Source: Sorangium cellulosum
GTDB taxonomy: Bacteria; Myxococcota_A; Polyangia; Polyangiales; Polyangiaceae
NCBI RefSeq assembly: GCF_004135735.1
Contig: NZ_CP012670.1
Coordinates: 186,001-250,000, forward strand
Direction of reading: 5' to 3'
DNA: 64,000 nucleotides
The position numbers and the translations under genes are program-made. This document shows positions 2,775 to 59,399 of this stretch, piece by piece. Below the pieces are notes generated by a model. That model did no database searches. It worked only from the letters and a program-made list of their open reading frames with translations, and was not told the DNA's origin. How positions within the stretch are numbered: the stretch's first letter is position 1; each line of letters opens with the position of its first letter.

Positions 2775-5018
2775 ATGGGCAAGGCCCACATCCACGGCAC
2801 GACGGCGGCGCCGGCGAAGCTCACCTCGGACCTCACCCGCTGCGATCAGGAGCCCATTCACGTCCCGGGCGCCATCCAGCCGCACGGCGCGCTGCTCGTC
2901 CTCGACGAGCCAGATCTCACGATCACGCAGGCGAGCGAGAACGCCGGCGAGCACCTGGGGCAGCCGCTCGAGCGCGTCCTCGACCAGCCGCTCTCGGCCG
3001 TGCTCGGGGAGGCGTCGGCGGCCGAGGTGCGGGCGGCGCTCGACGGGGATCGCTGGAAGGAGCTGAATCCGCTCTCCATCGCCGCGCGCGGCCGGCGCTT
3101 CGACGGCATCGTCCACCGCCACGCCGGGGCCACGATCCTCGAGCTCGAGCCGATCCTCCCGGCCGCGACGGAGGCCACCGTGCATCACCCGCTGCGGCGG
3201 GCGCTCCTTCGCGTGCAGTCGGCGGGGACCCTCGGCGAGCTCTACGAGGTCGTCGTGCACGAGGTGCGGCGCTTGACCGGCTTCGAGCGCGTGATGCTCT
3301 ATCAGTTCGACGACGAGGGGCACGGCGCCGTGATCGCGGAGGCCAGGGGACCGTCGCTCGAGCCGTACCTCGGCCTGCATTACCCCGCCTCCGACATCCC
3401 GCGGCAGGCGCGCGCGCTTTACCTCGCGAACCCGCTCCGCATCATCCCCGACGCCCGCTACACGCCGGCGCGCCTCGTCCCCGGCGCGAGGCGAGAGCGC
3501 GCGGCGCCCCTCGACCTCAGCTTCGCCGTGCTGCGCAGCGTCTCGCCGGTGCACCTCGAATACATGGCCAACATGGGGGTGCTCGCCTCGATGAGCGTCT
3601 CGCTCCGCGTGCATGACGGCCTCTGGGGGCTCATCAGCTGCGCGAACCACAGCGGGCCTCGACGGCTGCCTTACGAGCTCCGGTCCGCCTGCGAGGTGCT
3701 GGGGCTCCTGACCTCGCTCGAGATCGCCGCGTTCGAGGATCGCGAGGCGGCCGCCCGGCGCGACGCGCGCCGCCTTCCCCTCTCGCTCCTGGTCGACGCG
3801 ATGCGCTCCGGCGATGACGTGCTCGAAGGGCTGCTCGCCCGCCCGGCAGAGCTCCTGGCCCTGGTGGGGGCAGAGGGGGCGGCGGTGGTCCGGGCGGGCG
3901 ATGCGCGGACGTGGGGCCGTACCCCGCCGCTGCCGTTCGTGATGGCCCTGGCGGACTGGCTGGACCAGCGCCCGGATGCATCGCTGTTCTCGACCGCGTC
4001 CCTCGCCGCGATGCTCCCGAGCGCCCTCCCGGTCAAGGACGTCGCGAGCGGGCTCCTCTCGTTCGGGTTGCCCGGGGCCGAGCATCGACGCCTCCTGTGG
4101 TTCCGGCCGGAGATCGTGCAGACGGTCCGCTGGGGAGGGGACCCGCGAGAGCCGGTCGAGACCGACCCTCACATGCGTATCCACCCGCGCCGGTCGTTCG
4201 CGCTGTGGAAGCAGGAGATGCGCTTGCGCTCGCGCCCCTTCAGCGCGTCCGACATCGAGGCGGCGGAGGATCTCCGGCGGTACGCGGTCGAGATCGACCT
4301 GGAGCGGCAGGTCGAGCGCGCGCAGCGGGCCGTGCGCGCGCGCGATGATCTCGTGGCGGTGGTCTCGCACGACCTCAAGAACCCGATCGGCGTCATCCAG
4401 ATGCAGGCCGCCCTGCTCTTGCGCGCGGCGGGCCCCCATGACGAGCCGCAATCGCGCCGCCTCCGCGCCCTGGCCGAGCGCATCCAGCGCTCGGTCGATC
4501 GAATGAACGCGCTCGTCCACGGCTTGCTCGACCTGGCGAAGATCGAGTCGGGGCGGTTCGTGCTCGAGCGTCGGCCCGAGCCGACGCGGGAGCTCGTCGA
4601 GGAGGCGCTGCTCGCGATGCGCCCGCTGGCGGAGTCCAGGCGGATCACGATCGCCGAGCATGTCGTCGAGACGCCGCGCGTGGAGGCCGACCGCGAGCGT
4701 ATTTTCCAGGTGTTCTCGAACCTGCTCGGCAACGCGATCAAGTTCACGCCCGAGGGCGGCGCTGTCACGGTGGAGGTCGCGCTGGAGCGGGACGGGGTCC
4801 GCTTCACGGTCGCCGATACGGGCCCGGGGATCCCCGCCGATCGGCTCCCGCACGTGTTCGAGCGGTACTGGCGAGCGCCCGGGGAGCGGTCCGCGGGCGC
4901 GGGCCTCGGCCTTTACATCGCCCATGGAATCGTCGAGGCGCACGGCGGGCGGCTCTGGGTCGAGTCCACCGTCGGCGTCGGCACCCGGTTCATGTTCACG
5001 TTGCCCCTCTCGTCATGA
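2775..5018 (+). CDS. bphP: Bacteriophytochrome sensor histidine kinase
   Basis: Red/far-red photoreceptor kinase of 747 residues, the usual length for the PAS-GAF-PHY-HisKA-HATPase family. Cys23 near the N-terminus (LTRCDQEPIHVPGAIQPHG) is the expected biliverdin attachment site. The GAF domain has PASDIP with Asp207, His260 in SPVHLEYM and His292 in CANHSG, positions almost identical to the well-studied Deinococcus protein. The PHY tongue motif PRRSF is at about 471-475. The kinase core has His532 in VVSHDLKNP, an N box NLLGNAIKF, and ADTGPGIP and GAGLGLYIAHG glycine boxes. The ATG was chosen because it gives the canonical N-terminus; the open frame extends further upstream. Its stop overlaps the next gene's start (ATGA). 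No response regulator or heme oxygenase gene is adjacent. Confidence 0.95.
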   Translation: MGKAHIHGTTAAPAKLTSDLTRCDQEPIHVPGAIQPHGALLVLDEPDLTITQASENAGEHLGQPLERVLDQPLSAVLGEASAAEVRAALDGDRWKELNPLSIAARGRRFDGIVHRHAGATILELEPILPAATEATVHHPLRRALLRVQSAGTLGELYEVVVHEVRRLTGFERVMLYQFDDEGHGAVIAEARGPSLEPYLGLHYPASDIPRQARALYLANPLRIIPDARYTPARLVPGARRERAAPLDLSFAVLRSVSPVHLEYMANMGVLASMSVSLRVHDGLWGLISCANHSGPRRLPYELRSACEVLGLLTSLEIAAFEDREAAARRDARRLPLSLLVDAMRSGDDVLEGLLARPAELLALVGAEGAAVVRAGDARTWGRTPPLPFVMALADWLDQRPDASLFSTASLAAMLPSALPVKDVASGLLSFGLPGAEHRRLLWFRPEIVQTVRWGGDPREPVETDPHMRIHPRRSFALWKQEMRLRSRPFSASDIEAAEDLRRYAVEIDLERQVERAQRAVRARDDLVAVVSHDLKNPIGVIQMQAALLLRAAGPHDEPQSRRLRALAERIQRSVDRMNALVHGLLDLAKIESGRFVLERRPEPTRELVEEALLAMRPLAESRRITIAEHVVETPRVEADRERIFQVFSNLLGNAIKFTPEGGAVTVEVALERDGVRFTVADTGPGIPADRLPHVFERYWRAPGERSAGAGLGLYIAHGIVEAHGGRLWVESTVGVGTRFMFTLPLSS

Positions 5019-6043
5019 GCCCGCTTGAGCTCGGCGCGGCGTCCTGGTTCCATCGAGATGCCATGAGCGGTGCCGCGCCACGCCGGTGGATCCCACGATG
5101 GCTCGCCGCGCTCGCGATCGTGCCCTGCGCGTGCCATGGCCCCGCAGACGCTCCAGCGAGCAGGCCGGCCCCCGCGCGCGACAGCGTCGCGCCCCGTCCG
5201 CACGACAGCGCCGCGCCCGGCCCGGCGCAGCCCGGCCCGGCGCCTCCGCCGGCCGCCGCCCCGCCCACGAGCGCGCAGGCCGCTCCGACGCCGTGGCCTC
5301 CGGCGAGGCCGCAGGGCATCGAGACGGACTGGTGCATCGACGGGATCGACGCGCTCGACGAGGAGACCTGTTATGTGCTGCCGGACGCGCCGACCCGCGC
5401 CCTGCTCATCTATCTCCACGGGATCGTCCCGCCGGGGAAGCAGAGCCCGCAGAAGACCAATTTCGAGACCGTCGTGGCGCGCGCCTCCCGCCGCGCCGGC
5501 GTCGCCGCGCTGATGCCGCGCGGCAAGGTCGGCCTGGCGCCCCGGGGGTTCGCGCGCTGGTGGGGCTGGCCGACGGGCGACTCGACGTACCGGGAGCACG
5601 CCGCCGGGCTCGTGGCGGCGTTCGCGGAGAAGCGGCGCAAGCTCGAGGAGCTGACCGGCGCGCCGTTCTCGCGGGTGTACGTCGCCGGCTCCTCGTCGGG
5701 CGCGTTCTTCGCCGCCGCGCTCGCGCTGCGCGGCGGCATCGACGCCGACGGGTTCGGCGCGATGTCCGGCGGGGGAGGCCGCGCGACGAAGGAGCTCCCG
5801 GCGCTCGAGCCCAGGCCGTTCTACATCGGCTTCGGCTCGCACGACGCGGCCGGCCGCTCGGCCCGCGCCCTCGCCGACGTCCTGCGCGCCGCGCGCTGGC
5901 CCGTGCGCGTCGCCGAGCACCCGGTCGGCCACGGCGCGAAGGAGGTCTACCTCGATGAGGCCTTCGCCTTCTGGCGCGAGCACGAGATCGATGAGGCCCC
6001 TCGGGGCGCGAGCACGCCACGGGCCTCGGGGACAGGGCGGTGA
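5015..6043 (+). CDS. Alpha/beta-hydrolase (esterase-like), probable lipoprotein
   Basis: A 342-residue protein whose ATG overlaps the phytochrome stop codon by 4 nt, so translation is probably coupled. An internal Met17 is the more likely functional start of an export signal (RRWIPRWLAALAIVPCAC) ending in Cys residues, followed by a Pro/Ala-rich linker to about residue 100. The catalytic domain has an oxyanion-type HGIVPPG near 135, a nucleophile elbow AGSSSGAFF with Ser227, and a C-terminal VGHGAKEV that may supply the His. This resembles the feruloyl-esterase/PHB-depolymerase-like branch. The substrate is unknown and a light-linked role is only inferred from the overlap. Confidence 0.8.
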   Translation: MSPLELGAASWFHRDAMSGAAPRRWIPRWLAALAIVPCACHGPADAPASRPAPARDSVAPRPHDSAAPGPAQPGPAPPPAAAPPTSAQAAPTPWPPARPQGIETDWCIDGIDALDEETCYVLPDAPTRALLIYLHGIVPPGKQSPQKTNFETVVARASRRAGVAALMPRGKVGLAPRGFARWWGWPTGDSTYREHAAGLVAAFAEKRRKLEELTGAPFSRVYVAGSSSGAFFAAALALRGGIDADGFGAMSGGGGRATKELPALEPRPFYIGFGSHDAAGRSARALADVLRAARWPVRVAEHPVGHGAKEVYLDEAFAFWREHEIDEAPRGASTPRASGTGR

Positions 6044-6155
6044 GCCTGCGCCAAGAGCACGTGCTGCGCGCCGGCGAGGGTCGCAGTCAGGCGTGGGTCG
6101 AGCGCTGCGTCGCGCCGATGTCCGACGCGCTCGATCTCCCGGACGAGGGCGCGGC

Positions 6156-7163
6156 TCAGGAGCGCGACGCGCTCGCCGGCGGCCGGGGGCGACGCGGCGC
6201 GCGGGGGCGAGCCCTCGCGCCCGTGGCCCTCGTCCCGAGCGCCTCGCGCACGGACGTGGCCGTGGCGGCGCGCGCGATCCATCGATCGAGCTTCGCCGCG
6301 TCGGTGCAGGCCAGGATGCGCGCCTCGTCGTCCTGCGAGGGCGAGAGCCCGCGCGCGCGCAGCAGCGTCATCAGCGCTTGCTGCCGGCCCCTGGCCTCGC
6401 CCTCGGCCCGTCCCTTGGCCTCGCCCTCGGCCCGTCCCTTGGCCTCGCCCTCGGCGCGGCCCTTCTTCCGTCCCTGCGCTTCGAGAAAGAGGCGGAGCTT
6501 CCTGGCAGCAGGGGTTTCCGGGATCTTGTCGGGGTTCATCGAGGCCTCCCTGAGGAGCGCCAGCATGCGCTCGCTGAGCACGGACAGGATCGCACGCTGC
6601 TGCGCGCGTCGCAACGCGGGGGGCAGCCGCTCGGTCAGCTCGAACGCCCGCTCGACGACGGCGCGCGCCCTGGGCCCGTGGCGGTGCTGCATGGCCCACG
6701 CCGCGAAGAGCGCGAGCTCCGGGTGGCGCTCGTCGAGCAGCGCCTTGCTCTCGGCGGCGCCGAGGTGGAGCACGACCGGCTTGAGCTGGAGCACGGTGCC
6801 GAGGCGCGTGCGCACGCAGGCCACGCGCTCGGCCCAGCGGGCGACGGCGCGGCGGGCGGTGATGACGAGCACGTCGCCGGCCACGCCGGTCTGATCGTGG
6901 AGCAGGCTGGCCGCGAGGGGCCATCGGCGGCGCTTGGCCGGGTCGACGCCGCGCTGCAGCTCGACCAGGACCCAGCGCCGCTGGCCCCCGCGGTAGACGA
7001 GATCCAGCCGCAGCTCGGCGGGCTTGACGAAGCGGAGCGTGGCGTCGGACGGCTTGAGGCTCCGCGGCAGCTTCACGCCGGTGAGCGTGGAGACGAGCGC
7101 GCCGAGCAGCCCGGGCTGCTCGCGCAACGCGACGATCAGGACCTCGTGCGACGTGCCCGGCAC
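6156..7163 (-). CDS. Rpn-like PD-(D/E)XK nuclease family protein
   Basis: A 335-residue protein starting at GTG. The N-terminal half reads as a PD-(D/E)XK fold: RLDLVYRGGQ followed by WVLVELQR gives Asp54, Glu68 and Gln70 in the D...ExQ arrangement seen in Rpn/transposase-like nucleases. A helical middle region contains RAFELTERLPPALRRAQQ. It is followed by tandem GRAEGEAK octapeptides (three near-identical 24-bp units) and a basic Pro/Arg-rich tail. Similar repeated basic linkers are common in this family. It converges with the hydrolase gene. The role is unknown; a DNA end-cleaving or recombination function follows only from the family. Confidence 0.72.
   Translation of the reverse strand: MPGTSHEVLIVALREQPGLLGALVSTLTGVKLPRSLKPSDATLRFVKPAELRLDLVYRGGQRRWVLVELQRGVDPAKRRRWPLAASLLHDQTGVAGDVLVITARRAVARWAERVACVRTRLGTVLQLKPVVLHLGAAESKALLDERHPELALFAAWAMQHRHGPRARAVVERAFELTERLPPALRRAQQRAILSVLSERMLALLREASMNPDKIPETPAARKLRLFLEAQGRKKGRAEGEAKGRAEGEAKGRAEGEARGRQQALMTLLRARGLSPSQDDEARILACTDAAKLDRWIARAATATSVREALGTRATGARARPRAPRRPRPPASASRS
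6393..6464. repeat. Three 24-bp tandem repeats inside the Rpn-like gene
   Basis: Three consecutive 24-bp units, two identical and the third slightly diverged, encode GRAEGEAK octapeptides on the minus strand. The in-frame length means copy-number change would lengthen or shorten the linker without breaking the protein. Confidence 0.9.
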
Positions 7164-7719
7164 GACGCCGTGACTACGACGGGAGGAGGGGAGTCGGCCA
7201 AGTTCTCACCTCATCGCGCGCGGACATGGGCTGTCGCGCCATATGGTAGTCAGAGACCGAAATGGGCGCCGACGTCTGTCCGCAATAGATCGTCCTCCGC
7301 CGTGCGCTCGACCGTGAGCTTCTTCACCCTTCTCTTCGCGCGACGACAGCTCCTCGACCGGCCCAGGCGTCCGCAGCGGCCACACCGGAAAACGCGAGCA
7401 CCCAGGAGCACGCGAGCGCGCAGCGCAGCGTGAGCCCTCAGGAGAATGCGAGCCTTCAGGAAAACGTGAGACGTAAGGAGAGCGTAGGCGCGCGGGAGGG
7501 CACGAGTCCGCAAGAGAGCGCGAGCGCGCGAGAACGAGAGCACACAGGCTGAGCTCGCCATCGCGTCCCGAGCGCTGTCACGCGCACGACCGCGATGCGA
7601 GCTCAGCGTGTAACAATGAAGCTCCCTGCGCGCCGTCCGCCCATGGAAGCGCATCATCAGGACAGTCCTTACGATATCCATCGTGGACGCCCTCGACCGA
7701 TCCAGATTACGCTCCTCGC
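7164..7719. other. Intergenic gap with a degenerate 18-bp tandem array
   Basis: No convincing gene is visible in this gap between the Rpn-like gene and the oxidoreductase operon. Its centre is an array of eight 18-bp units. A 143-codon minus-strand frame spans it, but its product is a low-complexity Leu/Ala/Arg hexapeptide repeat created by the array, and I do not call it. The last 100 bp before the operon are less GC-rich and probably hold the operon promoter, but no clear -35/-10 pair was found. Confidence 0.5.
7394..7537. repeat. Eight degenerate 18-bp tandem repeats
   Basis: Eight head-to-tail 18-bp units share the pattern GYGAGNNNNCAGGAGANC with much divergence. On the plus strand they read as a hydrophilic six-residue repeat (ENASxQ-like) that lacks a start codon. 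On the minus strand they read as a Leu/Ala/Arg repeat. Confidence 0.8.
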
Positions 7720-8445
7720 GTGTCGAGCCGCAGCAAGGAGGATCCGCGCTCCCCGACCGGGGGCGCTCCCAGCGAGGGCCGCGGCGCCGGCGACGGCGCG
7801 CAGGCCCTGCTCACCCGTCGCCGCTTCCTCGCCGGCACGGGGCTCACGGCCGCGACCTCCGTGGCCATCGAGGCGTGCAGCCCTGCCGAGCCGCAGGCGC
7901 CGCGCGGCCAGGGCAAGGGGACCGAGGTCCTCGGGCCCGATCGCGTGCCCATCACCCTGCAGGTCAACGGCGTGGAGCGGAAGCTCACCGTGGACCCCCG
8001 CGCCACGCTCGCCGACGCCCTCCGCGTCGACCTCGGGCTCACCGGGACCAAGGTGGTGTGCGATCGCGGCGCCTGCTCCGCCTGCACGGTGTGGCTCGAC
8101 GGCACCCCCGTGTGCTCGTGCATGACCTTCGCGCTCGACGCGGTCGGGCGCGCGGTCGTCACCGTCGAGGGGCTCGCGCGCGGCGGCGCCCTGCACCCCG
8201 TCCAGCAGGCGTTCATCGAGCACGACGCCGCGCAGTGCGGCTTCTGCACCCCGGGCATGGTCATGAGCTGCGCCGCGCTGCTCCAGCGCAACCCGTCGCC
8301 GACCCTCGACGACGTGCGCGCGGCCACGAGCGGCAACCTCTGCCGCTGCGGCACCTACCCCAAGGTCTTCGAGGCGACCCTCGCGGCGGCGCGGGGCGGC
8401 GCGCGGCCGCCCCAGGGGCCGGCCGGCGGGCGGAAGGAGGGCTAG
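7720..8445 (+). CDS. Aldehyde oxidoreductase, [2Fe-2S] subunit (PaoA/YagT-like)
   Basis: Small iron-sulfur subunit of a xanthine-oxidase-family molybdoenzyme, 241 residues from a GTG. A twin-arginine signal (LTRRRFLAGTGL, Arg33-35) indicates folded export to the periplasm, as in E. coli PaoA. A ferredoxin-like domain carries the first [2Fe-2S] site (VVCDRGACSACTVW plus CSC). The helical domain carries the second (CGFCTPGM and CRCGTY). It passes electrons from the molybdenum centre toward the FAD subunit. The next gene starts 2 nt after the stop, so this is the first gene of a tight operon. Confidence 0.93.
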   Translation: MSSRSKEDPRSPTGGAPSEGRGAGDGAQALLTRRRFLAGTGLTAATSVAIEACSPAEPQAPRGQGKGTEVLGPDRVPITLQVNGVERKLTVDPRATLADALRVDLGLTGTKVVCDRGACSACTVWLDGTPVCSCMTFALDAVGRAVVTVEGLARGGALHPVQQAFIEHDAAQCGFCTPGMVMSCAALLQRNPSPTLDDVRAATSGNLCRCGTYPKVFEATLAAARGGARPPQGPAGGRKEG

Positions 8446-8447
8446 CC

Positions 8448-10865
8448 ATGGCCGACGAACAGCGCACGGTGCGGGTCCCGACCGGCATCGTCCACCCGGG
8501 CGGCAGCGAGGTGACCGAGCGCCAGCGCTCCGTGCCCGCCGACGAGCCGCCGCCCTGGCCCGTGAACGCCGCGCTCTCCGCGGTCGGCAAGCGCACGCCG
8601 AGGCTCGACGGCCGGCTCAAGGTCACCGGCGGCGCGACCTACACCGCCGACGTGCGGCTCCCGGGCATGCTCTTCGGCCGCGCCGTCCGCTCGCCGCACC
8701 CGCACGCGCGCGTGCGCGCCGTCGACGTCTCCGCGGCCGAGCGGCACCCCGGCGTGCACGCGGTCCACGTGCTCGAGCGGCTGCGCGGGAGCGCCGTGCT
8801 CCGCGATCCCTCGAAGGAGCTCCCCTCGAAGTACCCCGTGGTGCGCTACGCCGGGCAGCCCGTCGCCGCGGTCGCCGCCGTGACCCAGGCCGACGCGGAC
8901 GAGGCGGCGCGGCTCATCCGGGTCGAGTACGAGCCGCTGCCGTTCGTCGTGGACCTCGACGAGGCGCGCGAGCCGGGCGCGCCGCTCGTGTTCCCGGGGC
9001 CCGCGGACCAGGCCGCGACCGCGGGCGGCGGCGGCGGGCCCGCGGGCGTGCCCCAGAGGGGCAACGTGCGCGGCCCGATGAAGAGCGGTCCGCTCGGCCC
9101 GCCGCGCGGCGACGTGCAGAAGGGCCTCGCCGAGGCCGACGTCCGGGTCGAGGCCACCTACCGCACCCAGGTGCAGACCCACTCGGCCCTGGAGCCCCAC
9201 GGCGTGGTGGCCGACTGGAAGCCCGAGCTCCTGACCGTGTACGCGTCCACCCAGGGCACCGGCACCGTGCGCGACGAGCTCGCCGAGGTGTTCGGCCTGC
9301 CCAAGAGCCGCGTCCGCGTCGTCACGGAGTTCATGGGCGGCGGCTTCGGCGCCAAGTTCGGCATCGGCAACTACGGGGCGCTCGCGGTGCACCTCTCGAA
9401 GAAGGCCGGCGCGCCGGTGCGGCTGATGCTCGACCGCAAGGAGGAGCACGTCGCCGGCGGCAACCGGCCCAGCTCGGTGCAGGAGCTCCGGATCGGCGCC
9501 AGGAAGGACGGCACCCTCACCGCCATCCACCTCGTCTGCCACGGCACCGGCGGGACGGGCACGGGCTCCGGCGCCGGCGGGCCGGCCAAGAACCTCTACC
9601 CGTGCCCGAACCTGCTCGTCGAGGAGAGCGACGTGTTCACCCACGCGGCGCCGGCCGCGGCGTTCCGCGCTCCGGGCCACCCGCAGGGCGCCTTCGCCCT
9701 GGAGCAGGCGATCGACGAGCTCGCCGAGAAGCTCGGGATGGATCCGGTCGCGCTGCGCGACAAGATCGACGTCGACGAGGACCAGGGCGGCCGCAACGTC
9801 GACAGCGCGGCGCGCCGGGTGGAGCGACGGATCGGGGCCGAGAAGATCGGCTGGTCGCGGCGGCGGCCGCCCGGCTCCGACCCGGGCCCGGTGAAGCGCG
9901 GCCTCGGGATGGCGCAGTCGATCTGGTACCGCATCGTCGACCTGGACGCCTCGTGCGAGGTCCGCGTGGTGCGCGACGGGTCGGTGGAGCTGCGCTCGGC
10001 GGTGCAGGACATCGGCACCGGCATCCGCACCGCGCTGGCCCAGGTCGTGGCCGAGGAGCTCGGGCTCCGGCCCTCCGACATCCACGTGCGCATCGGCGAC
10101 ACGGAGTTCCCGTCGGGCGTCGCCTCGGGCGGGAGCAAGACCACGGGCTCGATGACCCCGGCCGCGCGCAACGCGGCCCACCAGGTGCGCAGGCGCTTCC
10201 TCGCCGAGGTGGCCGCCGCGCTCGGCGAAAAGCCCGAGGCCCTCGCGCTGCGCGACGGCAAGGTCGTGGTGTCGAGCGACGGCGGCCGCTCGCTCTCGTT
10301 CCGGGCCGCCGCGGCGAAGCTCCGGACCGAGCAGATCGCCGCCACCGCGAGCCGCCCCGAGGACTACGGCGGCTTCGCCACGGGCCGGCCCCGGGGCGGC
10401 ATCGGCATCGGCGGCTGCGGCGGGGTGCAGTTCGCGGAGGTCAGCGTCGACACCGAGACCGGGATCGTCCGGGTGGAGCGGGTCGTGGCGGTGCACGACT
10501 GCGGCCGGCCGATCAACCCGCTCGCGCTGGAGAGCCAGATCAACGGCGGCATCCTCCAGGGCATCTCGTACGCGCTCTACGAGGACCGGGTGCTCGACCG
10601 CCGCGCCGGGCGGATGCTCAACACGAACTTCGAGCAATACAAGATCCTCGGCGCCCGCGAGACGCCGAGGATCGACGTCACGATCCTGGAAGAGTACCAC
10701 GGCCGGAGCTCCACGGACGCGGGCGGCATCGGGGAGCCGGCCACGGTGCCCACGGCGGCCGCGGTCGCCAACGCCGTCTACAACGCCACGGGCGCGCGGG
10801 TGCGCGAGCTGCCGATGACGCCCGCGCGGGTGCTCGAGGCGCTCGCCCGGAAGGAGGCGCGATGA
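8448..10865 (+). CDS. Aldehyde oxidoreductase, molybdopterin-binding subunit (PaoC/YagR-like)
   Basis: Large catalytic subunit of 805 residues, about 70 longer than E. coli PaoC, partly because of an N-terminal extension before RLDGRLKVTGGATYTADV. Molybdenum cofactor motifs are present: EFMGGGFGAKFG, AFRAPGHPQG, QDIGTGIRTAL, GGSKTTGSM and NGGILQGISYAL. The C-terminal GIGEPATVP contains the glutamate that acts as catalytic base in the family. It oxidises aldehydes or N-heterocycles with water as the oxygen source. It has no signal of its own and is presumably co-exported with the Tat-bearing small subunit. Its stop overlaps the next ATG (ATGA). The gene order here is 2Fe-2S, Mo, FAD, unlike E. 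coli. Confidence 0.93.
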   Translation: MADEQRTVRVPTGIVHPGGSEVTERQRSVPADEPPPWPVNAALSAVGKRTPRLDGRLKVTGGATYTADVRLPGMLFGRAVRSPHPHARVRAVDVSAAERHPGVHAVHVLERLRGSAVLRDPSKELPSKYPVVRYAGQPVAAVAAVTQADADEAARLIRVEYEPLPFVVDLDEAREPGAPLVFPGPADQAATAGGGGGPAGVPQRGNVRGPMKSGPLGPPRGDVQKGLAEADVRVEATYRTQVQTHSALEPHGVVADWKPELLTVYASTQGTGTVRDELAEVFGLPKSRVRVVTEFMGGGFGAKFGIGNYGALAVHLSKKAGAPVRLMLDRKEEHVAGGNRPSSVQELRIGARKDGTLTAIHLVCHGTGGTGTGSGAGGPAKNLYPCPNLLVEESDVFTHAAPAAAFRAPGHPQGAFALEQAIDELAEKLGMDPVALRDKIDVDEDQGGRNVDSAARRVERRIGAEKIGWSRRRPPGSDPGPVKRGLGMAQSIWYRIVDLDASCEVRVVRDGSVELRSAVQDIGTGIRTALAQVVAEELGLRPSDIHVRIGDTEFPSGVASGGSKTTGSMTPAARNAAHQVRRRFLAEVAAALGEKPEALALRDGKVVVSSDGGRSLSFRAAAAKLRTEQIAATASRPEDYGGFATGRPRGGIGIGGCGGVQFAEVSVDTETGIVRVERVVAVHDCGRPINPLALESQINGGILQGISYALYEDRVLDRRAGRMLNTNFEQYKILGARETPRIDVTILEEYHGRSSTDAGGIGEPATVPTAAAVANAVYNATGARVRELPMTPARVLEALARKEAR

Positions 10866-11842
10866 ACCGGTTCGCATGGGTCAACCCGGGCTCGGTCGAG
10901 GAGGCCGTCGCCGCGCTGGGCGCGAGGGCGGCGCTCAAGGCCGGCGGCGTCGACCTGATGGACCTGCTCAAGGAGCGGCTGATCGCGCCCGAGCGCCTGG
11001 TCAACCTGCGCGCGATCCCCGGGCTCGACGGCATCGAGGAGCGCGCGGACGGGCTGCACATCGGCCCGCTGGCCACGCTCGCGCGCCTCGCGGAGGCGCA
11101 GGCCGTGCGCCTCCGCTACCGCGCGCTCGCCGACGCCGCGGGCCGCGCCGCCACGCCGCAGATCCGCAACGTGGCCACGGTCGGCGGCAACCTGCTGCAG
11201 CGGCCGCGCTGCTGGTATTTCCGCAGCGAGGACTTCCTGTGCAAGAAGAAGGGCGGGGCGCGCTGCTTCGCGCAGGACGGCGAGAACGCTTACCACGCCT
11301 TCCTCGGCAACGCGGTGTGCGCCGCGGTGCACCCGTCGGCGATGGCGGTCGCGCTGCTCGCGCTCGGCGGGAAGCTCCGCATCGTGGGGCCGCGGGGCGA
11401 GCGCGAGGCGCCGCTCGAGGGGTTCTTCGTGACGCCGGAGCAGGACGTGCTGCGCGAGCACGCGCTCGGCCCGCAGGAGATCGTCACCGAGGTCCTGGTG
11501 CCGCCGCCCGCGCCGGGGGCGAGCTCGGCCTACCTGAAGCAGGGCGAGAAGGAGTCGTACGACTGGCCGCTCGCCGAGGTGGCCGTGCTGCTCGAGCGCG
11601 AGGGCGGGCGGTGCCGGCGGGCGTCGATCGTGCTCGGCGCGGCGGCGCCGGTGCCGCACAGGGCGCGGGCGGCCGAGGCGGCGCTCGCCGGCAAGGCGGT
11701 CGACGAGGCGGCCGCGCGCGCGGCCGCCCGGGCCGCGGTGGAGGGCGCGACGCCGCTCGCGGACAACGGGTACAAGGTGACGATCGCCGAGGTGATCGTG
11801 CGGCGGACGATCCTCGCGGCGGCCCAGGGGAGCGGGACATGA
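10862..11842 (+). CDS. Aldehyde oxidoreductase, FAD subunit with [4Fe-4S] insert (PaoB/YagS-like)
   Basis: A 326-residue FAD-binding subunit. The flavin motifs TVGGNLLQRPRCWYF and the N-terminal LKAGGVDLMDLLKE match the CO-dehydrogenase flavoprotein fold. Cysteines in RCWYF, FLCKKK, GARCFA and GNAVCAA match the extra [4Fe-4S] cluster insert that marks the PaoB branch. Electrons leave the complex here to an external acceptor. It overlaps both neighbours by 4 nt, so translation of the three subunits and the following small gene is probably coupled. Confidence 0.92.
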   Translation: MNRFAWVNPGSVEEAVAALGARAALKAGGVDLMDLLKERLIAPERLVNLRAIPGLDGIEERADGLHIGPLATLARLAEAQAVRLRYRALADAAGRAATPQIRNVATVGGNLLQRPRCWYFRSEDFLCKKKGGARCFAQDGENAYHAFLGNAVCAAVHPSAMAVALLALGGKLRIVGPRGEREAPLEGFFVTPEQDVLREHALGPQEIVTEVLVPPPAPGASSAYLKQGEKESYDWPLAEVAVLLEREGGRCRRASIVLGAAAPVPHRARAAEAALAGKAVDEAAARAAARAAVEGATPLADNGYKVTIAEVIVRRTILAAAQGSGT

Positions 11843-12159
11843 TCGACGACAGGGCGAGGGGCGGAGCCGGCGACGGGGCGGAGGCGCCGGCGGGCGAGGG
11901 CCCCGGTCCGGGCGCGGCCGAGCGGCCGCCGGTCGTGTGCAGGAAGCTCCGGACGAAGGTGGCCTTCGGCTCGATGCACCCCGGCCTGCGCGACTGGCGC
12001 TATGGCGCGTCGAGCACGGCCGTGTACTGGTGCCTCGCGACCCTGGAGACCGCCGGGCCGGACGACGGCTACGCGCACCCGCACTGCTGCTGCGCGGGCC
12101 GCTCCTGCTTCGTGGCGCCGGCGGACGACGGCGCCGACGAGCGCGCGCCGATCGCGTGA
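11839..12159 (+). CDS. Small Cys-rich protein coupled to the aldehyde oxidoreductase operon
   Basis: A 106-residue protein whose ATG overlaps the FAD-subunit stop. I do not recognise the family. After a Gly/Ala/Pro-rich first third it contains RKLRTKVAFGSMHPGLRDWR, then YWCLATLETAGPDDGYAHPH with a CCCAGRSC cluster. Several Cys and His residues in about 30 positions suggest metal or Fe-S binding. It has no signal peptide. Its place as the fourth gene in the operon suggests a maturation, electron-acceptor or regulatory part. It is not a PaoD/XdhC-type chaperone, as it is too short and lacks that fold's motifs. Confidence 0.75.
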   Translation: MIDDRARGGAGDGAEAPAGEGPGPGAAERPPVVCRKLRTKVAFGSMHPGLRDWRYGASSTAVYWCLATLETAGPDDGYAHPHCCCAGRSCFVAPADDGADERAPIA

Positions 12160-49554: not shown

Positions 49555-51993
49555 TCAGCCGCGCTGGCCGACGCCGCGGCCGCGGGTCCTGGCCAGCGCG
49601 TAGCGGAAGCCGCGCGCCAGGTTGGGCTGCGTCACCATCGAGCCGACGTCGAGGCCCTGATCGACCATCGTCTGCGCGGCGTCCGGCCTCAGGCCGACGA
49701 GCACCGCCTCGGCCCCGAGCAGCGCGGCCGCCTGCGCCGCCCGGACGAGCTGCGACGCCGCCGCCGCGTCCACGACCGCCATCCCGGTGACGTCGATCAG
49801 CACGATCCGCGCCCCCTGCGCGTCGATCGCCCGCAACATCGACTCGATGAAATGGCTCGAGCGCTGGGCGTCCATGACGCCGATCACGGGCATCACCAGG
49901 ATGCCCTCCGCGATCGGCACGACGGGGCTCGAGAGCGCGCGGATCGTCTGGAGCATCGACTCCCGCTGCACGCCGGCGCGCTCGAGCGCCGCGCTCCGCT
50001 CGGAGATCCGGCGGAACAGCCGGGCGTTCTCGATGCCGACCGCCGCCGTGCCGGCGACGCGGACGAGGAACGACACGTCGCCTGGCCCGCACGCCTGCCG
50101 CCGGTCGCTGCTCAGGACGAGGGCGCCGAGGACGCTGCCCCGGGCCTGCAGGGGCAGGGCGACGACCGTGCGCGCGCCGGCGTGGGCCGGGGGCAGGGCG
50201 GCGTCCGCGCGCCCGTCGCCGTCGGCCGGGTCGAGCACGAGCGGGCGACCCGCCTCGATCGCGCGGCCCACGGGCGAGCGCGCCGGGATCGCGACCTCGG
50301 CCTCGACGACGGAGCGCTCGGGCGGCGAGAGGCCGATCAGCAGGATCTCGGCGGGATGCGCGACGGAGGGGGGCCGAGCGTCCTGCCCGCTCGCGGCCCG
50401 GCGGGCCGCGTCGAGCGTGAGGTAATCGGCCAGCGGCGTGGACCACGGCGTCCGCTCGAGGGTGACGCAGTCGACGCCGGTGTGGAGGACGCGCGAGGGC
50501 GGCAGCTCCGCGAGGATCGGCGCGATGCCGCGCGTCATCATGCGATGGATCACCTCGACGGCGCGGAAGCCCATGTCGTACTCGCGCTGGACGATCGTCG
50601 CGTGGATCGTGCCCTGCCGGAGCAGGGCGACCGTGCTGGCGATGAGATCGAACCCGACGATCTTGAGATCGCCGCGCCGGCCGAGCTCCTTCGCCGAGAG
50701 GCCCCAGGAGGGCCCGTTGTCGGCGGCGATCCCGAACGCGCCGCCGATGTCCGGCCGCGCCCTGAGCGCCGCGGCGGCGAGCCTCGTCCCGGCCGCCTGA
50801 TCCCAGTCGCACGCGGTGGTCGGCAGCACCGTGAGGTTCGACCCGAGGGTCGCGGCGCGGAAGCCCTCGATGCGCTCGCGGGCGTTCAGCGCGAGCTCGA
50901 CGGGGCCGAGGGGCGCGACGACGCCGCCGCCGGGGAGCAGCCGCAGCATCATCTCGCCCGCCATCCGGCCCGCCGCCACGTTGTCGGTGCCGATGTACAG
51001 CGGCGCCAGGCTGCCCGGCACGGGCGGCGTGTCGATCACGACGACCGGGATGTCCGCCTCCGCCGCCCGCCGGAGCCCCTCCTCGACGATCTCGGGCGTG
51101 CAGGGCGCGATGACGATGCCGGGCACGCGCCGGTCGATCGCGTCGTCGAGCAGCTCGCTCTGCGAGCCCGCGCCGTATCCGCCGCCGCCGGTCCGGAGAT
51201 CCACGCTGAGACCCAGCTCGCGCCCGGCGCTGGCGGCGCCGGCGTGAACGTTCTGCCAGTACGTCGTCGGCTCGGACCGCGGGGCCCGGTACACGCGGGC
51301 GCGGCGGTCCCCCCCCGCGCCCGCCGCGCGCTCTCCGGGGTCGTCGTCCTCGAGCAGCCAGAGCTCCACCGTCTTCCAGTCCGGCTCGAGCTGCACGCTC
51401 CGGATCCCGTGGGCGATGATCTCGATGAGGTGACGCAGCTCGACGGTGGTGCCCACCGCGTTCAGCATCCGCTCGAACAGGCGGATCTCCTGCGCCGATC
51501 TCGCCTTGTCGTCATAGAGCCTGTTGCGCTCCAGCGCGTCCGCGGCGGCGTCCGCGAAGACCTCGATGAGGGCGCGGCGGTCCTCGTCCGGAGGCTCCGG
51601 GGTCGGCTGCTCGACGGCGAGGTAGCCCACCGGCTCGCCGCCCAGCGAGATGGGCGCGATCAGCACGCCGGCGCCTTCAGGGATGGCGCCGTCGAGCTCG
51701 ATCGCGGAGGGCAGGTACGCCCGGTACCACGCGCGCGCATCGACGACGCGGGGCCCCCGCGCCGCCTCGAGCGCCGCCTCCGGGGCGAGCGGGCCGCGCG
51801 CGCCGTCGGGCTCCGCGGCCGCCGAGCGCTGCGGCAGGGGAGGAGGCGTCGCGCCGAACCCGGCCAGCGCTCGAGCCACGAGGCGCTCGCCCTCGCGGAG
51901 GAAGACGCCGCCGCGCGGCGCGCGCGGCGGGACGGCCATGGCCCGACGCACGATCTGCTGCAACACGGCAAGGAGGTCGGGCACCTTGAGCAT
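49555..51993 (-). CDS. GAF / periplasmic-binding-protein / GAF / STAS fusion
   Basis: An 812-residue protein without signal peptide or membrane segment. Order: GAF-like domain (about 10-170, GVLIAPISLGGEPVGYLAVEQ); linker helix; a complete type-1 sugar-binding-protein domain (about 235-495: YWQNVHAGAASAGRELGLSV, VPGIVIAPCTPEIVEEGLRR, IPVVVIDTPP, YIGTDNVAAGRMAGEMML, IVGFDLIASTVALLRQGTI, ATIVQREYDMGFRAVEVI); a second GAF (about 525-680); a C-terminal STAS domain (695-805, with RIVLIDVTGMAVVDAAAASQLV). The DVTG Thr736 sits where RsbR proteins are phosphorylated. It is inferred to be a cytosolic ligand-sensing stressosome-type protein. No RsbS/RsbT genes are beside it. Confidence 0.9.
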   Translation of the reverse strand: MLKVPDLLAVLQQIVRRAMAVPPRAPRGGVFLREGERLVARALAGFGATPPPLPQRSAAAEPDGARGPLAPEAALEAARGPRVVDARAWYRAYLPSAIELDGAIPEGAGVLIAPISLGGEPVGYLAVEQPTPEPPDEDRRALIEVFADAAADALERNRLYDDKARSAQEIRLFERMLNAVGTTVELRHLIEIIAHGIRSVQLEPDWKTVELWLLEDDDPGERAAGAGGDRRARVYRAPRSEPTTYWQNVHAGAASAGRELGLSVDLRTGGGGYGAGSQSELLDDAIDRRVPGIVIAPCTPEIVEEGLRRAAEADIPVVVIDTPPVPGSLAPLYIGTDNVAAGRMAGEMMLRLLPGGGVVAPLGPVELALNARERIEGFRAATLGSNLTVLPTTACDWDQAAGTRLAAAALRARPDIGGAFGIAADNGPSWGLSAKELGRRGDLKIVGFDLIASTVALLRQGTIHATIVQREYDMGFRAVEVIHRMMTRGIAPILAELPPSRVLHTGVDCVTLERTPWSTPLADYLTLDAARRAASGQDARPPSVAHPAEILLIGLSPPERSVVEAEVAIPARSPVGRAIEAGRPLVLDPADGDGRADAALPPAHAGARTVVALPLQARGSVLGALVLSSDRRQACGPGDVSFLVRVAGTAAVGIENARLFRRISERSAALERAGVQRESMLQTIRALSSPVVPIAEGILVMPVIGVMDAQRSSHFIESMLRAIDAQGARIVLIDVTGMAVVDAAAASQLVRAAQAAALLGAEAVLVGLRPDAAQTMVDQGLDVGSMVTQPNLARGFRYALARTRGRGVGQRG

Positions 51994-57736: not shown

Positions 57737-58492
57737 TCAGTGCTGCGCGAGCACGCCCAGCATCTCGAACGGATTCGCCTCGTACTCCTGCTCTGTCATG
57801 AAGCCCTCGAGGTCGAGCCACTCCACGAGAGGTCGGCACGCTTGCACACGCCAGGGCCCGAGGAGCGCCGTCATCTCGTCGAGCGTGCGCGGGTAGGCGT
57901 TCACCCTGGCGAGGGTCGCGGCGTCGCTGAGCTGGCCGCCCGCGGCGGGGTCGCGCAGCGCGACGAAGCTGAGGGCCAGCACGCTGCCGCGAGCGCAGAA
58001 CGCGTGCATCTGCTGAAGGAGATCGCGCGCGTCCTCGTCGTTCATCATGTACACGATACCGATGCAGCCCACCGCGATGCGGCGATCGGCGCCGAAGAAC
58101 TGCGCCGCCGCCGCGAGCAGCGGCGCCGGCGCGCGCACGTCGGCCTGGACATAGCGCATGTTCGGCCTGTCCGAGAGGAGCCGCTCGCCGTAGATCACGC
58201 TCACCGGATCGTTGTCCGAGAACAGGATGCGCGCCTCGGGCAGGTGGTCGTTGAGGTGGCCCTGCGTCGGCAGCCCCGAGGCGAGATCGAGCACGTTCGT
58301 GATCCCCGCGTCCAACCATTGCTCCGCCACGAGCTGGATGAACCAGCGGTTGAGCCTCGCCCATTTCGGATAGGTCGGCAGGATCTTCAAGATCGCCGCG
58401 GCGGCGTTGCGATCCACCGCGAAGTTGTGGTGCCCTCCGAGGACGTAATCGTAAACCCGACCGATGTGCGGCTTGCTGGTGTCGATCTCCAT
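57737..58492 (-). CDS. SAM-dependent methyltransferase (DUF574/Methyltransf_19)
   Basis: A 251-residue protein of the DUF574 methyltransferase family, common in actinomycetes. DTSKPHIGRVYDYVLGGHHNFAVDR is the family opening, and NVLDLASGLPTQGHLND is the SAM-binding loop. It also has ARILFSDNDPVSVIYG, VGCIGIVYMMNDEDARDLL and AFCARGSVLALSFV. The substrate is unknown. It starts 34 bp after the STAS gene stop on the same strand, so it is probably part of a stress-signalling operon. Confidence 0.9.
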   Translation of the reverse strand: MEIDTSKPHIGRVYDYVLGGHHNFAVDRNAAAAILKILPTYPKWARLNRWFIQLVAEQWLDAGITNVLDLASGLPTQGHLNDHLPEARILFSDNDPVSVIYGERLLSDRPNMRYVQADVRAPAPLLAAAAQFFGADRRIAVGCIGIVYMMNDEDARDLLQQMHAFCARGSVLALSFVALRDPAAGGQLSDAATLARVNAYPRTLDEMTALLGPWRVQACRPLVEWLDLEGFMTEQEYEANPFEMLGVLAQH

Positions 58493-58526
58493 GGTCCCCT
58501 CCGGGTGCGAGCGCGCGGCGCGCACG

Positions 58527-59399
58527 TCAGCGGCCGCGGTACGAGCGGCTGGATCCGTCCTTCGGCGGCGCGACCCTGCGCACGTCGAGCCCTTCGCGTC
58601 GCAGCGCGTGGACGACGCCGCTCTGCAGGTTGGCCAGGACGACGATGCCCCCGAGCTCGGCGCCGTGATGGCACAGCGCGCGGGCGAGCTCGGGGCGGAT
58701 GCCGACCAGCACCGGGTGGGCCCCGACGAGGTCGAGGGCGCGCGCGGTGCGCACCAGCGCGGCGACGACCTCCGCGTCCACGGCCGGCACGCCGGTCACG
58801 TCGATGATGACGGTGCGCGCTTGCCGGTCCACCACGTCCCGCAGCAAGGACTCCGTGATCCTGCCGGCGCGCTCGATGTCGAGCTCCCCGATGAGCGGCA
58901 GCACCAGGATGTGGTCGTACACGGGCATGATCGGCGTCGAGAGCTCCAGGATCACGCGGCGCAGCTCGCCCTCGCGGTCCTGTATCGCCCGCTCGAGCGC
59001 GCGCTGTATCTCGTCGCGCTGGATGCCAATCTCGAGCCGCTCCTCTTCTGCCACCGCGTCCACGAGCAGCGTCAGGTAGTCGTTCACGCGCGCCACCTCC
59101 TCCAGCGCGTCGGTCGTCCTCTCCGGCAGGCGCTGCAGCACCTCGCGCACGAGGGCGCGGCTCATCCCGAGGAGGGCGCGCAGCCCGAGCCCCTGCTGCC
59201 CGAGCGCGCGTCCGAGCGACAGGACGGGCGCCGCGTCGCCGGAGCCGAGGAACTGGAGCAGCCCGGCGAGGATCTGCTGCGCGACCTGCGGCAATCGGAA
59301 CGGGGGGAGGCCGCTGCGGTTGTGCGCGACGTTGTCCTTCAGCGCCTTCGCCGCGCTCCTCGCCAGCGCCTGATGCTCCGGGTCGATCCAGCTCTGCAT
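58527..59399 (-). CDS. RsbR-like STAS-domain stressosome protein
   Basis: A 290-residue RsbR-type protein. The N-terminal helical sensor (residues 1-145) resembles non-heme globin-like RsbR sensors. The STAS domain follows: ILELSTPIMPVYDHILVLPLIGELD, RTVIIDVTGVPAVDAEVVAALVRTARALDLVG and VLVGIRPELARAL. Thr202 in the DVTG motif is where RsbT phosphorylates RsbR. RsbS and RsbT are not nearby. It lies in an operon with a DUF574 methyltransferase. Confidence 0.9.
   Translation of the reverse strand: MQSWIDPEHQALARSAAKALKDNVAHNRSGLPPFRLPQVAQQILAGLLQFLGSGDAAPVLSLGRALGQQGLGLRALLGMSRALVREVLQRLPERTTDALEEVARVNDYLTLLVDAVAEEERLEIGIQRDEIQRALERAIQDREGELRRVILELSTPIMPVYDHILVLPLIGELDIERAGRITESLLRDVVDRQARTVIIDVTGVPAVDAEVVAALVRTARALDLVGAHPVLVGIRPELARALCHHGAELGGIVVLANLQSGVVHALRREGLDVRRVAPPKDGSSRSYRGR

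Follow-up and report, generated by a model that had tools for sequence, protein, structure and literature searches.

RsbR co-antagonists of the stressosome, such as RsbRA of Bacillus subtilis and RsbR1 of Listeria, consist of a variable sensor followed by a long helix and a C-terminal STAS domain, and are found in genomes that also carry RsbS, RsbT and phosphatase-type genes. The same is true of an 812-residue protein of Sorangium cellulosum (GCF_004135735.1, hereafter the own genome), encoded on the minus strand at 49555–51993 of a 64,000 nt stretch of contig NZ_CP012670.1 (the window, to which coordinates given without a locus name refer). Its sensor, however, is a sugar-binding-protein domain set between two GAF domains rather than a globin-like fold, alanine replaces both of the RsbR phospho-threonines, and the gene is located outside RsbRST-type operons. 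This GAF/PBP/GAF/STAS protein (PBP for periplasmic binding protein) is real, conserved and unusual, an RsbR-type sensor of a new form. We put the chances at about even that its ligand is a cytosolic, hexose-type sugar and that it signals to a partner-switching complex resembling the stressosome while remaining unphosphorylated.

YtvA, which is not known to have the canonical phospho-sites, belongs with RsbL to the blue-light subunits; its sensor is a LOV domain, in place of the sugar-binding fold seen here, and the YtvA family model matches the STAS part of the Sorangium protein only weakly (66.9 bits against a cut-off of 250). The glucose/xylose-binding protein of Thermotoga maritima (2h3h, 3c6q) is exported. 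It has the same fold as the binding domain, is 33–37% identical over it and has the Asp, Arg, Asp and Gln pocket residues in common, but it is a free sugar-transport protein, whereas in Sorangium the corresponding domain lies in the middle of a signalling protein that has no export signal. LacI-type domains also occur on STAS proteins of the same genomes (L094:2410-4542, L179:6530-8662, L180:5275-7407), which share the RsbR-like STAS domain and the alanine at both sites; their Peripla_BP_3 binding domain is N-terminal, no GAF domain was matched in them, and the fusion is separate from the family considered here. SpoIIE phosphatases of S. cellulosum carrying periplasmic-binding domains were described in 2010 (PMC2887360, main text). 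These likewise feed a sugar-binding-type domain into the same kind of partner-switching network, but their output is a phosphatase rather than a STAS antagonist and their binding domain is of the LacI type (Peripla_BP_3/1). Binding-protein domains have also been noted in cyclic di-GMP enzymes (PMC8846402). The first-pass annotation of this DNA knew of no description of the combination. That part stands for a sugar-binding domain on a STAS protein, of which we found no report among the titles and partial abstracts that our searches of open PubMed Central papers listed; the phosphatases known since 2010 narrow it, and the word 'periplasmic' occurs once in the main text of PMC2887360, in the passage that concerns them.

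Domain architecture

The gene is a single unbroken open reading frame (ORF) starting with ATG, laid out as follows.

49555..51993, minus strand: GAF / type-1 sugar-binding (Peripla_BP_4) / GAF / STAS protein, 812 amino acids (Pfam, relatives, AlphaFold2 model)
51529..51975, minus strand: N-terminal GAF domain, residues 7–155 (GAF_2, 31.9 bits, searched alone)
51457..51585, minus strand: long helix, residues 137–179, its start overlapping the first GAF span (AlphaFold2 model)
50446..51270, minus strand: sugar-binding-protein domain, residues 242–516
50029..50352, minus strand: second GAF domain, residues 548–655 (GAF_2, 41.6 bits; strands and helices of the model)
49933..50085, minus strand: long helix into the STAS domain, residues 637–687, its start overlapping the second GAF span (AlphaFold2 model)
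49576..49926, minus strand: RsbR-type STAS domain, residues 690–806 (STAS, E = 9.5e-13; RsbR STAS, E = 6e-27)
49867..49869, minus strand: Ala709, at the first phospho-Thr of RsbR (T171 in B. subtilis; PDB-chain residue 175; alignment and column counts)
49765..49767, minus strand: Ala743, at the second phospho-Thr of RsbR (T205 in B. subtilis, T209 in Listeria; alignment and column counts)

Searches of the full protein against Pfam matched Peripla_BP_4 at residues 243–486 (E = 2.2e-47), STAS at 690–782 and GAF_2 in two stretches. Both GAF domains exceeded the GAF_2 cut-off of 28.6 bits when excised, the first as part of residues 1–180 and the second within residues 517–812. Alignment with solved structures carries the binding domain across residues 242–534, slightly beyond the 235–495 first assigned to it, so the proposal that a complete type-1 sugar-binding domain separates two GAF domains is borne out. 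The AlphaFold2 model points the same way, with a mean predicted local distance difference test (pLDDT) score of 83.9 and values mostly above 90 in the binding-protein part; helix 637–687 connects the sensor part to the STAS domain, as expected of a stressosome subunit. Among the matches listed, 88 of 94 proteins carry Peripla_BP_4, are at least 590 residues long and are 42–96% identical (one, P0088, is frameshifted as deposited). Because of these long relatives, the junctions are not an artefact of assembly or of ORF joining. Both GAF domains were matched by Pfam in the own-genome paralog L051, and the second one only in the paralog L052.

The protein has neither an N-terminal hydrophobic segment nor a lipobox, in line with the lack of an export signal stated at the outset. 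The best 12-residue mean hydropathy within its first 45 residues is 1.52, compared with 2.48 and a lipobox in an exported sugar-binding protein of the own genome, and the top 19-residue value of the whole protein (1.83, at residue 691) falls inside the STAS core. Nothing like a lipobox was matched in the full-length paralog L051; the other full-length paralog, L052, has a match at residue 21, with no hydrophobic segment ahead of it (best value 1.16).

The sugar-binding pocket

The solved structures nearest to the binding domain are glucose/xylose binders. Pocket residues were mapped by alignment with the Thermotoga protein and with E. coli RbsB, whose ribose contacts are listed in Table 3 of PMC2630998, and columns were counted over 93 family rows. 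RbsB residues D89, R141, D215 and Q235 correspond to D321, R374, D449 and Q469, which are kept in 92, 93, 93 and 93 of the rows, respectively; the last three are invariant and D321 nearly so in an alignment that includes relatives of 37–42% identity. The stacking residues F15 and F16 become Y245 (Tyr in 75 rows, Phe in 18) and W246 (Trp in 81, Phe in 12), whilst N13 and F164 align with T243 and W397. Judged by this comparison, the pocket may well be a working one for an aldose-type sugar. An autoinducer-2-like ligand, suggested in the first-pass annotation as an alternative to sugar, is not favoured: the LsrB model gave 13.8 bits with the protein (cut-off 384), compared with 72.7 bits for the RbsB model.

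The STAS domain and its phospho-sites

A phmmer search of the PDB matched residues 683–806 to RsbR chains, presumably those of Listeria, with E = 6e-27 and to RsbS-type chains with E values from 3.5e-10 to 1.2e-7, in agreement with the RsbR-like end first proposed. Threonines equivalent to T171 and T205 are absent from the aligned protein, which has A709 and A743 instead; since both residues phosphorylated by RsbT are thus alanine, this subunit cannot go through the standard phospho-cycle of RsbR at these two positions. Within the main clade, 87 of 88 rows have Ala at position 743 and the remaining one has Ser; at position 709 the counts are 71 Ala, 11 Thr, three Arg, two Val and one Gly. RsbR chains with alanine at one or the other site are present in the PDB (9o3o, 9o3z), and the same letters are natural in this family.

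Shorter relatives differ in this respect. L105, P0086, P0087 and P0101, which lack most of the first GAF domain, have Ser and Thr at the two sites, and the sequences of L187 and L188, from the order of L105, read Thr and Thr. P0102 has Gly and Thr, retains most of the first GAF domain and branches beside the main clade. In a tree rooted on L105, P0086, P0087 and P0101 (split support 96), the phospho-sites appear to have been lost in the main clade while the sensor pocket was kept, an inference that depends on placing the root on these four shorter relatives. Alanine at the second site occurs in all five sugar-domain STAS proteins versus 17 of 50 other STAS sequences examined; as the five are partly paralogs, a link between this residue and sugar domains is suggestive only.

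Distribution of the family

Full-length copies occur in all six genomes of the genus, 17 of them whole and one, L106 of So ce26, in two pieces. Across the bacterial family, 6 of 108 genomes have copies, all six from this genus, and a sample of the phylum yielded a full-length protein in one of 282 genomes (the own genome) plus partial matches in three more (E <= 1e-40). The 41 loci detected in named-species genomes divide into 12 from Sorangium, one from a Roseiflexaceae metagenome-assembled genome (MAG; Chloroflexota) and 28 with the binding domain only. In the order of this MAG, three of 82 genomes, the MAG included, encode such a protein. The own genome has three proteins of the GAF/PBP/GAF/STAS type, counting the one described here.

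Partner-switching genes

A search of the own genome for RsbS and RsbT, proposed with the first annotation, found STAS-only, HATPase_c_2 and SpoIIE genes clustered at two places, which we read as RsbS/RsbT/phosphatase modules and which, with the paralogs, support a stressosome link indirectly. One (L053) comprises PAS-STAS (8727-10073), STAS-only (8308-8727), HATPase (7545-8237), SpoIIE (6964-7548) and HATPase (6488-6967) genes, and the other (L054) STAS-only (5261-5812), SpoIIE (5820-6374) and HATPase (6383-7012) genes. Both STAS-only, RsbS-type proteins have Ser at the place of residue 743, and the PAS-STAS, RsbR-type protein of the L053 operon has Ser and Thr at the two sites. HATPase_c_2 has 42 matches in the own genome at E <= 0.001, of which 21 exceed the curated cut-off; many of the 42 are probably histidine kinases. 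No fewer than two STAS proteins and four SpoIIE phosphatases of that genome carry a LacI-type binding domain.

Some further genes may be mentioned here. Two LacI-type-domain SpoIIE phosphatases in L191 (own genome 6427500-6437000) flank two ORFs of 125 and 178 amino acids, neither matched by Pfam, which are candidates for an antagonist and its kinase. In one Chloroflexota genome, the PBP-STAS gene is preceded on its strand, at a distance of two genes, by a LacI-type-domain SpoIIE gene (L190:12023-14296, minus strand). The window holds a second STAS gene (58527-59399, minus strand; 290 amino acids, Ala at the equivalent of 743), 6.5 kb from the first and directly upstream, on the same strand, of an S-adenosyl methyltransferase gene (57737-58525, minus strand), and also a bacteriophytochrome-type histidine kinase of 747 amino acids (2775-5018, plus strand; PAS_2, GAF, PHY, HisKA, HATPase).

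Gene neighbourhoods

We examined 18 family loci (window, L051, L052, L094 to L104, L106, L151 to L153), several on short contigs. The So ce26 ortholog (L094; 73% identical) adjoins a GH43 gene, a LacI-type-domain STAS gene and a complete, convergent CUT2-type operon of binding protein, ATPase and permease. In the own genome, the ortholog of that binding protein (70% identical) has its ATPase and permease genes alongside, and galT, galK, an epimerase and an aldose epimerase gene are nearby. An 84-residue remnant of the same binding protein (81%) adjoins the ortholog in G282 (L151), and the second So ce26 member, L101, adjoins a binding protein that shares 86% identity with the first and next to which neither an ATPase nor a permease gene was predicted.

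Elsewhere in the own genome, a 1706-residue kinase-AAA-GAF-STAS protein (L196:3734-8854, minus strand) is followed downstream on the same strand by sugar-binding-protein, ATPase and permease genes. Two Chloroflexota PBP-STAS loci share a neighbour (L105:4375-4902, L189:6691-7215) with a polyhydroxybutyrate/polyhydroxyalkanoate (PHB/PHA) accumulation regulator domain, matched by Pfam in the L189 copy; the L105 copy begins alike. In L189 the gene directly upstream of PBP-STAS, on the same strand, matches a glycosyl hydrolase catalytic core (9798-11933, minus strand; 27.3 bits, cut-off 21).

Discussion

In the mechanism that we favour, sugar would bring about closure of the binding domain, and the movement would be relayed through the second GAF domain and helix 637–687 into the STAS domain, which would share a mixed complex with RsbS and RsbR. 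The change in the STAS domain would then loosen its hold on an RsbT-type kinase, which could be released or restrained, as the direction may be either. As both threonines are alanine, there would be no phospho-switch-off at the second site and the output would track sugar occupancy rather than adapt. Signalling without phospho-sites would be feasible in view of two precedents. In B. subtilis with RsbRA as the sole co-antagonist, stressosomes that carried both the T171A change in RsbRA and the S59A change in RsbS gave 21% of the wild-type response, and phosphorylation of T205 is thought to be inhibitory (PMC3944199). In exponentially growing Listeria, the T209A change in RsbR increased transcription that depends on sigmaB (PMC9237128).

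Several observations weigh against this mechanism. PMC3944199 also gives a response of only 0.2% for the T171A–S59A pair with all four co-antagonists present, and states that RsbRA-T171A alone effectively blocks signalling; from these results, a subunit without phospho-sites might act as a brake or silence a mixed complex. In the pocket, the place of RbsB R90 is taken by T322, and N190 aligns with A423 and has no clear partner, N426 of a nearby Asn-Gly-Pro being a candidate. Genomic context counts against it in part. An intact exported binding-protein gene is adjacent at just two of the 18 loci (L094, L101), and the binding protein of the adjacent transporter shares only 26% identity with the binding domain, which makes a common ligand no more than a guess. 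No sugar genes were present among the window neighbours examined (AbgT transporter, hemerythrins, peptidases). The paralog designated C occurs with an aldehyde dehydrogenase gene at six loci (L052, L097, L098, L099, L104, L153), and at L052, L099, L104 and L153 also with FAA hydrolase, glutathione S-transferase-like, glyoxalase-type and homogentisate dioxygenase genes.

The STAS domain might instead operate outside the stressosome, as a non-phosphorylatable anti-anti-sigma factor that is exposed by sugar and neutralises the anti-sigma kinase of another partner switch. Position 743 is the place of the RsbS phospho-serine, retained in both RsbS-type proteins of the own genome, and, we assume, of the phosphorylated serine of SpoIIAA; the Ser/Thr phosphoacceptor of a SpoIIAA/RsbV-type factor is missing there, as the residue is Ala743. 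The gene is apart from the RsbS/RsbT-type operons, and the 42 HATPase_c_2 matches and four LacI-type-domain SpoIIE phosphatases leave room for several partner switches. However, the STAS domain is clearly nearest to RsbR among solved chains, and six shorter relatives retain the RsbR-type Ser/Thr pair. We regard this alternative as possible but rather unlikely.

It is more doubtful still that the binding domain no longer binds sugar, or takes another small molecule or a protein, and leaves sensing to the GAF domains. The changes at R90 and N190 and the tyrosine-degradation-type genes beside paralog C would fit such a change of role, but the near-complete conservation of R374, D449, Q469 and D321 across distant relatives argues for a retained pocket, and Thr at the R90 place is shared with the Thermotoga glucose-binding protein. 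Direct regulation of a sugar ATP-binding cassette (ABC) transporter, giving feedback on uptake rather than transcription, has a precedent in MlaB, a STAS regulator of the ABC transporter protein MlaF (PMC7367683), and is favoured by the complete ABC operon beside the So ce26 ortholog, but is very improbable. The STAS domain is RsbR-like, and next to the own-genome copies and at most of the remaining family loci we found no gene for a sugar transporter.

Returning to a cytosolic sugar sensor of the stressosome type, sugar-binding folds occur in the own genome on STAS antagonists (five found) and on SpoIIE phosphatases (four found). We tentatively suggest, as a possibility somewhat short of even, that they form a nutrient arm of the stressosome or partner switch, in which a megadalton hub would read cytosolic sugar through sensors that have lost the threonine phospho-switch and act by conformation only. 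The protein described here is a natural RsbR-type STAS protein with a predictable ligand class, in which the phospho-sites are already gone. The type-1 fold of its Thermotoga relative undergoes a hinge motion of 38 degrees (PMC2630998, table), and a sugar titration could reveal if binding of the ligand is enough to shift the STAS output, which would let sensing and switching by the stressosome be probed directly. Sorangium, in which PMC2887360 credits one S. cellulosum genome with 71 COG1366 (STAS) proteins, may use partner switching for carbon sensing.
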